Source of the DNA: an uncultured Fodinibius sp.
Lineage (GTDB): Bacteria; Bacteroidota; Rhodothermia; Balneolales; Balneolaceae
Direction of reading: 5' to 3'
Assembly: GCA_913056455.1 (NCBI GenBank)
Contig: CAJXMJ010000002.1
Location: 124,001 to 188,000 of the forward strand
DNA length: 64,000 bases
Below are positions 59,064-64,000 of the stretch, piece after piece. The translations under genes were made by a program, and so were the position numbers. Numbering within the stretch: the stretch's first letter is position 1; the number at the start of each line of letters is the position of its first letter. Below the pieces are notes generated by a model. That model had not been told where the DNA came from and made no database searches. It saw only the letters and a program-made list of their open reading frames with translations.

Positions 59064-59125
59064 ATTGATACTTGTATCGTAACAGATAATCGATTATGTT
59101 TGATTTGAAATTAAGAAGCCAAGAC

Positions 59126-59203
59126 ATGAAACGAATACAAAAACATATTTTCTGCCTCTGTTGTATGTGCATGTGTATGCCGCACCTGCAACCGGAGGAC
59201 TGA
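59126..59203 (+). CDS. Cys/Met-rich leader peptide
   Basis: A 25-codon frame from ATG 59126 to TGA 59203 has a run CLCCMCMCM at codons 10-18 and a basic start MKRIQKH. It lies 28 bases before a strong terminator and upstream of the methionine operon. The sequence CCGGAGG (59192-59198) at the end of the peptide gene is complementary, with one G-U pair, to CCTTCGG (59236-59242) in the terminator's 5' arm. This is the architecture of ribosome-mediated attenuation controlled by Cys or Met supply. A start at 59096 in the same frame is also possible. Regulation is inferred, not shown. Confidence 0.62.
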   Translation: MKRIQKHIFCLCCMCMCMPHLQPED

Positions 59204-59231
59204 TTCGTTTTACCCTTGTGAAACAGATTCA

Positions 59232-59263
59232 AAGCCCTTCGGTCGATCCCGAAGGGCTTTTTT
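59232..59263 (+). terminator. Terminator/attenuator after the leader peptide
   Basis: AAGCCCTTCGG and CCGAAGGGCTT form an 11-bp stem with a six-base loop, followed by six T. It lies between the leader peptide and the SAM riboswitch. Besides the leader peptide, it could terminate the M1 peptidase transcript. Confidence 0.88.
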
Positions 59264-59301
59264 AGTTTCTATACGATTGTTCTTTTGATTTAGTGAGCAC
59301 T

Positions 59302-59415
59302 CTTATCCAGAAAAGCTGAGGGATCAGGCCCGAAGACGCTTTGGCAACCGTCCCGCACCTCACCGTGCGGGGAAAAGGTGCCACTTCCTGCTCCGGTTAT
59401 CCGGGGAAAGATGAG
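59302..59415 (+). promoter_or_regulatory. SAM-I (S-box) riboswitch
   Basis: The conserved S-box core is readable in order: CTTATCCAGAAAAGCTGAGG, GATCAGGCCCGAAGACGC, GGCAACC, a GC hairpin (CCCGCAC/GTGCGGG), AAGGTGCCACTTCC and GAAAGATGAG. S-adenosylmethionine binding to this aptamer normally favours the downstream terminator, lowering methionine-gene expression. It is placed directly before O-acetylhomoserine sulfhydrylase, the expected target. Confidence 0.93.
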
Positions 59416-59447
59416 GGAACAGGCCCATACTCATGGTGAGTATGTAC

Positions 59448-59503
59448 AAGCCTCTTCTGAGATCTTTACCCGACCGGTGCAGGATCTTGGAAGAGGCTTT
59501 TTT
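59448..59503 (+). terminator. Expression-platform terminator of the SAM riboswitch
   Basis: AAGCCTCTTC (59448-59457) pairs with GAAGAGGCTT (59490-59499), followed by T-rich sequence, 52 bases before the first methionine gene. It would form when the aptamer is SAM-bound. Confidence 0.88.
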
Positions 59504-59522
59504 GTTTGAAATAGGATGTTAA

Positions 59523-60887
<1,365 letters not shown>

Positions 60888-60895
60888 ATAATAAT

Positions 60896-60926
60896 CCATC
60901 GGATGGCACATTCAGCCATCCGATGG
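60896..60926 (+). repeat. Perfect 12-bp intercistronic hairpin between metY and metX
   Basis: CCATCGGATGGC and GCCATCCGATGG form a 12-bp stem with a seven-base loop, nine bases after the metY stop. There is no T-tract, so it is likelier an mRNA-stability or processing element than a terminator. Confidence 0.75.
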
Positions 60927-60959
60927 GTTATTAAACAATATCAGGATGACATTTTTATT

Positions 60960-62003
60960 ATGAGCAATAAACAATCACATACTTTTGAAAAACCTTTTGT
61001 TACCGAGGGAGGTGCAACAGTTCCTGACCCGACCATAGCATATCAAACGTGGGGAGAGTTAAATGCCGAACGTGACAATGTTATTCTGGTCTGCCATGCT
61101 CTTACTGGAAATACATCGGCTGACCAGTGGTTTGAAGGAATATTCGGCGCAGATAAAGCCCTTGATCCCACGGAGTATTTTATTATTTGCCCCAATGTGT
61201 TGGGCAGTTGCTACGGATCAAGTGGTCCCACGTCCGTCAATCCCAACACCGGAGAACGATACCGGGCCGACTTTCCCATAGTCACTATCCGCGATATCGT
61301 GCGTATCCAACAGCATCTTCTGGACAAGCTCAATATCAACGGAATAGAACTCGTTATCGGGGGATCAATGGGCGGAATGCAAGCACTGGAATGGTCCATC
61401 ACGGATGACCGCCCGCAATCAGCTGTTCTTTTGGGAATGGGCGAAAAGCACCGTCCTTGGGCAATTGGTATTAGTCATACCCAGCGGCAAGCTATTTATA
61501 ATGATCCCAATTGGGATGGAGGATTCTATTCCGAAAAGAATCCCCCCAAAAAGGGATTGGCACTTGCTCGTATGATCGCCATGAACAGCTATCGGCATCC
61601 CTCCGATTTTGACAAAAAGTTTGGGCGTCGATTACAGAACGGTCAATCCCAATACGAAGTGGAATCGTACCTCAATTATCAAGGCGAAAAACTTGTAGAT
61701 CGGTTCGATGCGGTCTCCTACGTACGCCTGACCCAGGCGATGGATTCCCACGATATCAGGCGAAGTCGCCCGCGAATCCAAGAAATACTTGCAGCATTAA
61801 CTATTCCGATTGTCGTTGTCGGTATCGACAGCGATATGCTTTATCCCGCAGAAGAATGCCAAGAATTGGCAAAGCTACTGCCAAACGGACGTTACGAAGA
61901 AATTTCTTCTCCACATGGGCACGACGCCTTTTTAATCGAATTCGGGCAACTTAATCCTATTGTACAATCACTACAATCAGAACTATCAGAACAAGCGGTT
62001 TAA
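60960..62003 (+). CDS. metX: Homoserine O-acetyltransferase
   Basis: MetX acetylates homoserine with acetyl-CoA, feeding MetY. The alpha/beta-hydrolase signatures are GGSMGGMQALEW (Ser nucleophile near residue 141), GIDSDMLYP (Asp) and SPHGHDAFL (His). I place the start at 60960 (MSNKQSHTF) because the longer frame from 60903 runs through the intercistronic hairpin. It is 6 bases before the next gene, so the three are an operon. Confidence 0.92.
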   Translation: MSNKQSHTFEKPFVTEGGATVPDPTIAYQTWGELNAERDNVILVCHALTGNTSADQWFEGIFGADKALDPTEYFIICPNVLGSCYGSSGPTSVNPNTGERYRADFPIVTIRDIVRIQQHLLDKLNINGIELVIGGSMGGMQALEWSITDDRPQSAVLLGMGEKHRPWAIGISHTQRQAIYNDPNWDGGFYSEKNPPKKGLALARMIAMNSYRHPSDFDKKFGRRLQNGQSQYEVESYLNYQGEKLVDRFDAVSYVRLTQAMDSHDIRRSRPRIQEILAALTIPIVVVGIDSDMLYPAEECQELAKLLPNGRYEEISSPHGHDAFLIEFGQLNPIVQSLQSELSEQAV

Positions 62004-62009
62004 ATCAAA

Positions 62010-64000
62010 ATGTCATACACAAAAACACATACCCTTAAGTTCGGCGGTTCTTCATTACAAAACTCAACACTGATCCGTCAATCAGTCAACATCGTAAAGG
62101 AGCGAATTCAGAAAGTAAAACCTGTTGTAGTCGTTTCAGCTATTGGCGGAGTTACTGACAAGCTGATTGAACTGGCCGACCGTTACCCAACAAATAACCA
62201 TGTATCTTACCGGATTCTAAATGATCTTGAGAATCAACACCGTCGTATTTTTGACGAGTTGGCCTCTCCGGGACATCCAAGGCGTGGTGACCTGCAAGAT
62301 CTATTCGGTGAGCTAAGAATGACTCTTGAGAACGAAAATTCTCGGAATAAAAATTTTAATGCATGGAAAGATCAGATTTTATCGATTGGTGAACGAGCCT
62401 CAGCACTAATTTTTGCTGCTGCTCTCTCGGAACAAAATATTGATTCGGTTTCATACGAGGCCTCCTATTTTATTAAAACTGATTCCACCTTCGGCAAAGC
62501 ACAAGTGCAACGAGATGCCACCCGCAAACTGATTCAAAAATATCTTTTCCAGTCAAAGTCGGTACCTGTAATTACCGGTTTTATCGGCTCCAACGATCAA
62601 CAGCAAGTTACAACGCTCGGGCGATCAGGCTCCGATTACTCGGCCGCACTTATTGCCGATGCGCTGGATGCAGATCACCTTGAAATTTGGACTGATGTGG
62701 ACGGTGTGCTTACGGCCGACCCGCGCTGGGTACCCGATTCAGAATCTATCGAACGGCTCAGCTTCGGTGATATCACCGAACTCTCATCACATGGTGCACG
62801 CGTTATCCATCCCAAAACAATTCAACCCATCCAAAACAAAAAAACGACCGTGTTAGTAAAAAACAGCTACAATCCCCAACATCCCGGCACACTCATTACA
62901 TCCGACTTTAACACCAACGGCTCCCTCAAAACGATCACTATCACCGGTCCGTTTGTAAGACTGCAAATTGACCAAACCTATGCTTACGATTTGTTTGTAA
63001 AGCTGCATGAATGGAGTACAAACAAACCGGATGCCAAGCCCATAGCGTTTACTCAACAATCAGAATTTGAAGCAGCTCGTTTTTTGCTCAAACAATCATT
63101 TTTTGAGGAAATCAAAGAACAGCTCTCCACATGGGCAGCTAATCAAAATACACTCTTTACCCTTGACGACAACCTCTATAAGCTTAAAAAATTTAGTAAT
63201 CGTTTTAACGAGAGTGAAACGTTGTCGGGACAGATTATTTCCCTGCTTGATAAAAATGACATCCATCCGTTAAACATCGAACGGAACAAAGATGATCGAT
63301 TTATCTCCTTTTTGCTGCCCGAAGAAGAGGCCCGTCAGGCCGGCCATTTGATCAATAATATTATTTCTAAAACAAAACCTATCGTCAACCTTTTTGTAGC
63401 GGGCACCGGGGCGGTTGGAAAAACACTCCTGGATCAACTAAAAAAACTGGAGGCCTCTGATTTTCAACTTAGATTGATCGGTATCTGCAACAGTCGAAAA
63501 ATGCTGTGGAATACAGAGGGTATTGAGCTGGATAAAGCGCTTAATTGGAACGATGCAAAACAAACGAAATGGGATACCCTGTCGGACAAACTCACAAAAG
63601 CCCACCAGCGAAATATAATTTTTGTGGACGCCACCGGCAGTGAAGAAGTGGCCCGACTATACCCAAAACTATTTGCCAATGGAATCCATATTGTTACGCC
63701 CAGCAAATTGGCCAATACCTTTGAACAATCATTTTTTGACCAGTTGGAAACCCTGACTAAAAAACACAACACCTCATTTGAATATGAAACAACGGTCGGG
63801 GCAGGATTGCCGGTTATTTCTACAATAAATAACATGCAATCCACAGGCGATCAAATCTCTGAAATTTCAGGTGTTGTTTCCGGAACCATGACCTACCTAT
63901 TCAATCAGCTTGAACAAGGGATTCCGTTCAGCAAAGCCATTATTGATGCCCGAAAAAAAGGCTATGCCGAACCCGATCCACGTGATGACCTTTCCGGAGA
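62010..64000 (+). CDS. thrA: Bifunctional aspartokinase/homoserine dehydrogenase (partial)
   Basis: The frame from ATG 62010 stays open to the window edge (about 663 codons). The N-terminal aspartokinase has KFGGSSL at residues 10-16, VVVVSAIGGVTDKL, TLGRSGSDYSA and WTDVDGVLTADPR. The C-terminal homoserine dehydrogenase begins near residue 455 with the NAD(P)-binding LFVAGTGAVGKTLL, then SGVVSGTMTYLFNQ. It makes aspartyl-phosphate and later homoserine, the substrate of MetX, so the operon covers the path from aspartate towards homocysteine, apart from the semialdehyde dehydrogenase. The middle part lacks strong ACT signatures. It could equally be called metL. Confidence 0.92.
   Translation, partial: MSYTKTHTLKFGGSSLQNSTLIRQSVNIVKERIQKVKPVVVVSAIGGVTDKLIELADRYPTNNHVSYRILNDLENQHRRIFDELASPGHPRRGDLQDLFGELRMTLENENSRNKNFNAWKDQILSIGERASALIFAAALSEQNIDSVSYEASYFIKTDSTFGKAQVQRDATRKLIQKYLFQSKSVPVITGFIGSNDQQQVTTLGRSGSDYSAALIADALDADHLEIWTDVDGVLTADPRWVPDSESIERLSFGDITELSSHGARVIHPKTIQPIQNKKTTVLVKNSYNPQHPGTLITSDFNTNGSLKTITITGPFVRLQIDQTYAYDLFVKLHEWSTNKPDAKPIAFTQQSEFEAARFLLKQSFFEEIKEQLSTWAANQNTLFTLDDNLYKLKKFSNRFNESETLSGQIISLLDKNDIHPLNIERNKDDRFISFLLPEEEARQAGHLINNIISKTKPIVNLFVAGTGAVGKTLLDQLKKLEASDFQLRLIGICNSRKMLWNTEGIELDKALNWNDAKQTKWDTLSDKLTKAHQRNIIFVDATGSEEVARLYPKLFANGIHIVTPSKLANTFEQSFFDQLETLTKKHNTSFEYETTVGAGLPVISTINNMQSTGDQISEISGVVSGTMTYLFNQLEQGIPFSKAIIDARKKGYAEPDPRDDLSG

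Follow-up and report, generated by a model that had tools for sequence, protein, structure and literature searches.

The methionine operon of this uncultured Fodinibius sp. is preceded by a leader that very probably contains a trp-type, ribosome-mediated attenuator reading Cys and Met codons, placed in series with a SAM-I riboswitch. The tandem arrangement, with a boxA-like element between its two halves, appears to be order-wide in Balneolales and would unite known parts in a new combination. In the window, by which we mean the whole 64,000-nucleotide stretch that was analysed, direct reading recovered every element of the original prediction where it had been placed: a Cys/Met frame, a terminator, a SAM-I aptamer, a second terminator and a methionine operon, in series (Table 1). 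To these we add a boxA-like element and a possible 1:2 hairpin.

From the frame, its composition, the first terminator (T1), two mutually exclusive pairings at the stop codon, the SAM-I aptamer and the second terminator (T2), all taken from sequence and comparison, we infer translation, stalling, termination, the direction of the response and the function of boxA as follows. Transcription would begin just 5′ of the leader frame. When charged Cys-tRNA or Met-tRNA is scarce, the ribosome would stall in the run and leave region 2 free to pair with the 5′ arm of T1, allowing polymerase to pass; when both charged tRNAs are plentiful, a ribosome at the stop codon would cover region 2, and T1 would form. 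Polymerase that had passed T1 would transcribe the boxA-like element and then the SAM-I switch, in which SAM would favour T2. Full expression would thus need low charging of Cys- or Met-tRNA together with low SAM.

Table 1. Features of the metY leader and operon, in window coordinates
Feature	Position	Strand	Basis
−35-like box TTGTAT	59072–59077	+	direct reading; 17-nt spacing to 59095, a spacing kept ahead of the leader ATG in other clades
−10-like box TATGTT	59095–59100	+	direct reading; predicted start ~59107
Leader ORF, 25 codons, MKRIQKHIFCLCCMCMCMPHLQPED	59126–59203	+	reading and comparison
Cys/Met control-codon run CLCCMCMCM	59153–59179	+	reading and comparison
Possible 1:2 hairpin, control codons with region 2	59155–59198	+	−18.9 kcal/mol, z −2.1
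Region 2 CCGGAGG, putative antiterminator 5′ arm	59192–59198	+	folding and comparison
Predicted antiterminator hairpin 2:3	59192–59242	+	−18.6 kcal/mol, z −3.8 for 59189–59242
CCTTCGG, T1 5′ arm	59236–59242	+	direct reading
Intrinsic terminator T1 (3:4), 12-bp stem, T tract to 59266	59231–59260	+	folding; −20.7 kcal/mol, z −4.4
boxA-like GTTCTTT	59279–59285	+	motif comparison
SAM-I aptamer RF00162	59300–59417	+	covariance model, 83.1 bits (gathering score 44.4), E 4.2e-18, full length
SAM-free alternative fold, aptamer last strand with T2 5′ arm	59404–59466	+	folding; −28.2 kcal/mol, exclusive with T2 (window only)
Riboswitch intrinsic terminator T2	59449–59504	+	folding of 59449–59506; −31.5 kcal/mol, z −6.3 (window only)
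metY, O-acetylhomoserine sulfhydrylase	59556–60887	+	TIGR01326 680.8 bits, above cut-off
metX, homoserine O-acetyltransferase	60903–62003	+	NF001209 above cut-off
Bifunctional aspartokinase/homoserine dehydrogenase, continues past window end	62010–64000	+	aspartokinase TIGR00657 above cut-off; bifunctional models under theirs

For comparison, RF00162 was searched in the family of the window's genome, where 82 of 92 genomes match and all 104 loci were used, and across the class (211 of 244 genomes). A further 105 loci lie outside that family: 30 come from the order's other four families, one per genome and covering 30 of the 32 matching genomes, and 75 belong to other orders, taken among the matches listed. 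The resulting Balneolales set holds 111 metY-linked and 23 other SAM-I loci; the last two genomes of the order (G096 and G126) were added late and are counted separately. In a phylum sample RF00162 matched 247 of 296 genomes, and 64 loci outside the class were examined, among the matches listed, with one (L268) omitted as shorter than the analysis expected.

The leader search covered frames of 8–36 codons ending 15–170 nt 5′ of the aptamer, scored by Cys and Met within nine residues and accepted at five or more. The occurrence of such frames before SAM-I is far beyond chance. In Balneolales, 93 of the 111 metY-linked loci carry one (99 at a score of at least 4), and the two late-added loci score 6 each. 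No locus reaches 4 among the 23 in Balneolales whose SAM-I aptamer lacks a downstream metY; in sister orders of the class, among the matches listed, none of 57 metY-linked and none of 18 other loci reaches 5, and one reaches 4. Pooled, these controls amount to 0/98 at score 5 (23 plus 75, the latter among the matches listed). A score of 5 is reached by 0.18% of dinucleotide-shuffled Balneolales metY leaders, and once on the reverse strand of the 111 metY-linked leaders. By family, the counts are 71/81 (f1), 5/9 (f2), 0/4 with scores of 3–4 (f3), 1/1 (f4) and 16/16 (f5); the leader is clear in four of the five Balneolales families and weak in the fifth. The full set of leader (at least 5), T1, GTTCTTT, SAM-I and metY is present at 87/111 loci, and the codon pattern TGYATGTGYATG of the window has no other occurrence in its genome. 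Conservation of the frame in relatives, which had been put forward as a check on the original prediction, is therefore borne out by a Cys/Met run kept across the order at those 93 loci.

The peptides themselves are diverse. Among 102 leaders scoring at least 3, 99 are distinct, and runs such as CLCCMCMCM, MMCCMCMCM, ICMMCMCCF, AMCCMPC and ACYCMCMCMMC are free in both order and flanks. Their content is 18.3% Cys and 13.4% Met, compared with 0.75% and 2.5% for the long frames of the window; these peptides were picked for Cys/Met richness, so that composition alone is no proof, and the 111-locus count with its controls is the test. A free residue order with a fixed composition is the pattern expected of control codons. 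In the window, a second in-frame ATG at 59096 would give 35 codons; its overlap with the probable −10 box TATGTT makes 59126 the likelier start.

Cysteine alone could be the signal, with Met codons as filler fitting the 1:2 hairpin, a reading that we consider unlikely though deserving of attention. Cys is indeed the commoner residue, and the best nine-residue stretch holds at least two Cys in 101 of 102 leaders; however, Met is ~5 times above background in these chosen peptides, and both residues occur in the best stretch of 99/102. Metabolism also lends this reading something: the window's genome may make Cys from homocysteine, the product that MetY forms from sulfide, which would explain Cys sensing by a Met operon. 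The genome has one CBS/CysK-like gene and CGL/CGS-like genes, several of them below cut-off, and its CysE-like hits are weak (best 40.8 bits); the CysE cut-off is reached in 0/89 genomes. A strict link between the route to Cys and the leader was considered and rejected, since many leader-bearing relatives have CysE-like hits of 160–182 bits.

That the frame is short and conserved, and precedes both a terminator and a Met operon, could also point to nascent-chain arrest, the peptide sensing a small molecule such as SAM or methionine in the ribosome rather than tRNA charging; plant CGS1 offers a precedent. Arrest peptides usually retain fixed residues, however, and here the order and both ends vary across the 99 distinct peptides, which have their Cys/Met composition in common; we judge this reading improbable, and return to control codons read through tRNA charging.

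Twelve of the 111 metY-linked loci score below 4, three with a weaker Cys run (L140, L166, L218) and nine with none. The leader has apparently been lost in one genus group (g19), in which all six loci found (L099, L108, L110, L112, L119, L139) are without the frame. The metY SAM-I loci of this group lie directly 3′ of era, and five of the six keep GTTCTTT; a strong T1, sought at L099, L108 and L139, was not found.

T1 folds at −5 kcal/mol or better in 97 of the 102 leader loci; it is missing in L160, L179 and L210, and L140 and L166 have only weak hairpins. These five loci were dropped from the antiterminator tests (n = 97). Pairing of the T1 5′ arm with the stop-codon region has a median of −14.6 kcal/mol, compared with −7.5 in shuffled sequence (mean z −3.4), and in 91/97 loci at most 5 of 100 shuffles are as good, in a test that covered only −24 to +16 of the stop codon, with position thus partly built in. 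A search of the whole leader, from 40 nt 5′ of its ATG to T1, shows the T1 5′ arm again pairing best around the stop codon, in 97/97 loci. In shuffled leaders the best partner lies in that 40-nt span in 521 of 1940 cases (27%), the span being 30% of the stretch.

The two arms also change in step between clades, as CCGGAGG/CCTTCGG in the window and GAGAGCC/GGCTCTC in L159. Matched arms elsewhere are CCGGGGGA/TCCCTCGG (L076), GCGGAGGG/CCCTCCGG (L071), AGGGTTCA/TGAACCCT (L149) and ACTCTGGGGACT/AGTCCTTTAGAGT (L124, with a one-base bulge); some clade pairs include G-U, and the position of region 2 relative to the stop codon shifts between clades. Formal covariation within a clade is modest. When 32 loci from a single clade are aligned by sequence alone with MAFFT, pairing along the helix is 94.4%, compared with 23–63% when slid, and column pair 10/62 reads A-U 20, G-C 6 and U-A 1. 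Seven cells are changed on both sides versus 1.9 in shuffles, with 0/500 shuffles reaching 7; these changes fall in one of eight pairs, a number that 452/500 shuffles reach, so that most support for the antiterminator comes from changes between clades. The MAFFT test is unfitted; a register fitted per locus yields 290 double-change cells that lean to structure. The pairing and co-change first proposed for CCGGAGG and CCTTCGG have thus both held up, the former at the stop codon of all 97 loci (27% in shuffles), the latter between clades and in one column pair within a clade, and the predicted antiterminator is supported.

According to modelled folds, the window would hold a complete trp-type set of hairpins (Table 1). 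A fold of the whole stretch with both arms prefers T1, and the antiterminator would therefore have to win by forming first. If the ribosome is taken to reach 12 nt past the first base of the A-site codon, and the partner is the one identified across the whole leader, then region 2 is overlapped in 97/97 loci by a ribosome positioned at the stop codon. Region 2 is clear of a ribosome at the first codon of the run in 97/97 and at the last in 75/97. Such geometry fits a system in which stalling would give readthrough, and completion termination. Support for the 1:2 hairpin is modest, with a mean z of −1.4 against codon-shuffled leaders across the 97 loci, 64 of which fall below −1.

Four loci of family f2 (L160, L179, L210, L336) depart from this layout. 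Their Cys/Met frame ends 22–23 nt 5′ of the aptamer, adjoining boxA, and no T1 with a T tract lies between frame and aptamer; these leaders must act otherwise or not at all.

Upstream of the leader ATG, 63/102 loci have TTG at −38 to −35 and 65/102 have TAnnnT at −14 to −12; both are present in 61/102, compared with 5/102 when the test is shifted 40 nt upstream. In loci with both boxes these would form a sigma-70-like promoter with a spacer of ~17 nt and a start on or beside the AUG, making the frame probably leaderless there. The boxes of the window would give a 5′ UTR of ~19 nt from a start at ~59107; a consensus promoter scan of the window did not flag them (59072–59077 and 59095–59100). 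A start downstream of 59264 had been named as contrary to the original prediction, and the conserved promoter elements lie before the frame. The 23 non-metY SAM-I loci of the order (L042, L058, L063, L070 and others) constitute a second class, mostly beginning TGCTTAT, and in 22/23 of them the 40 nt immediately 5′ of the aptamer contain a box of the type TATATT, TATCTT or TATTTT (patterns picked by eye).

Promoter-like boxes 5′ of the frame and a terminator 3′ of it would also befit a gene for a functional Cys/Met-rich small protein, binding metal or acting in redox, with T1 as its plain terminator; clusters of Cys and Met are able to bind soft metals. A stop-codon partner for the T1 5′ arm at every one of the 97 loci, changing in step between clades, is nevertheless more than a plain terminator needs, and among the order's SAM-I loci examined the frame stands only before metY, leaving this explanation very improbable. 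That the frame and T1 are merely the 3′ end of an upstream gene, with an accidental run, is scarcely credible: T1 is indeed a bidirectional palindrome between two genes, but the upstream neighbour varies (M1 peptidase-like or era), the f1 frame stays 72–157 nt before the aptamer, and the run is conserved across the order and rare in shuffles. The evidence is best accommodated by a Cys/Met attenuator ahead of the riboswitch.

Between T1 and the aptamer, and at most 40 nt 5′ of the latter, 103 of the 111 metY-linked Balneolales loci contain GTTCTTT, which we take to be boxA-like from the boxA consensus. It is found in 95/102 loci with a leader and 8/9 without, in 1/23 non-metY loci of the order, and in 6/75 loci of other orders (metY-linked, 5/57), among the matches listed; shuffled 40-mers contain it in 29 of 2220 cases. 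Elsewhere in the phylum, among the matches listed, it lies at most 40 nt 5′ of SAM-I in 37/64 loci, compared with 5/1280 shuffles, which suggests that boxA is common in the SAM-I leaders of this phylum. The loci concerned, which are not tied to a leader peptide, are L255–L267, L269–L277, L280, L281, L285–L287, L297, L300, L301, L306–L308, L312 and L316–L318. Seven of eight 16S rRNA leaders read contain GTTCTTT (one each in G009 and G125, two in G040, three in G092), G009 being of the same genus as the window's genome; the eighth, in G003, has GTTCTCTGA (GTTCTCT) instead. A 16S search in the window's genome (G000), G024 and G103 found none. In SAM-I leaders GTTCTTT may act as a boxA, a NusB/S10 site; boxA regulation outside rRNA is reported in the relevant passages of PMC5725501.

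A leader with three inputs is conceivable on this basis, joining Cys/Met stalling, loading of Nus factors by boxA and the SAM-I switch; we advance it tentatively, at somewhat less than an even chance. Nus factors loaded at boxA onto polymerases already past T1 would save the long untranslated riboswitch from Rho. If true, the leader would be an AND gate that requires low SAM as well as amino-acid starvation, with the rRNA antitermination machinery tuning it; it would rest on a leaderless frame and be conserved throughout one order.

Downstream, the aptamer appears to carry a terminator/antiterminator platform, with T2 and an exclusive alternative fold, and SAM binding is predicted (Table 1). 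In four loci (L002, L006, L007, L008) a frame of the M[KR]STFNNWYD type, presumably CoA-binding-like, lies between SAM-I and metY; it is absent in the window.

The trp and his attenuators consist of a short control-codon frame, exclusive 2:3 and 3:4 hairpins and an intrinsic terminator. The Balneolales leader has all of these in common with them, and differs in its two kinds of control codon, both for sulfur amino acids, in the riboswitch that follows, and in a frame that is probably leaderless or has a very short 5′ UTR. Attenuation at trp is summarised in the pertinent section of PMC3641672, where two tandem leaders also appear. That of mgtCBR likewise has two attenuators per leader, one reading tRNA charging (Pro), but as described there its second sensor reads ATP via another frame, the stem-loops are unlike intrinsic terminators, and there is no SAM aptamer. 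The SAM/B12 tandem of Bacillus clausii metE places two sensors and two intrinsic terminators before a Met gene, and differs in that both sensors are riboswitches, again on the description given in that section.

Other likenesses concern single parts. Mycobacterial polycysteine leaderless short ORFs (Canestrari 2020, as cited in PMC9031893) share a run of Cys codons near the stop, a leaderless frame and sulfur genes. The account of mycobacterial cys leaders in PMC1262725 gives no conserved terminator hairpin, and neither Met codons nor a riboswitch is named in the relevant parts of that paper or of PMC9031893. In Rhodobacterales, uORFC-8-2 before cysS has a Cys-codon frame (two Cys) and an intrinsic terminator; it regulates cysS, with neither a Met run nor a riboswitch named in the corresponding passages of PMC8632094. 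A Xanthomonas SAM-I element that binds uncharged initiator tRNA also combines SAM and Met-tRNA state in one leader, but in the part of PMC7270179 devoted to it the tRNA is bound by the RNA itself and its effect is on translation, and no leader frame is named. Leader peptides outside Proteobacteria and Actinobacteria are discussed in PMC2965389, with no such tandem case in the relevant section.

The open-access literature, among the papers listed, yielded no case of a SAM riboswitch combined with a Cys/Met attenuator and no paper on Balneolales with a riboswitch, in keeping with the original impression that the combination had not been described. As far as that literature shows, a leader-peptide attenuator coupled in series to a SAM riboswitch would be new, as would an attenuator reading both sulfur amino acids. 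If true, the arrangement would extend ribosome-mediated attenuation to a deep Bacteroidota lineage and constitute a natural logic gate in which the supply of amino acids is read apart from that of the cofactor.

Outside the class, among the matches listed, a leader was found in 1/64 loci. This locus (L284, in genome G412 of another Bacteroidota class) has MKIQIKNTSGKLNMAMCMCCMCNIGPR, T1, SAM-I and metY, without GTTCTTT. Its metY is 75% identical to that of the window over 196 residues; among the other five loci of its family, metY is 66–72% identical to the window's in four and 35.6% in the fifth. The cassette may reflect transfer or convergence.
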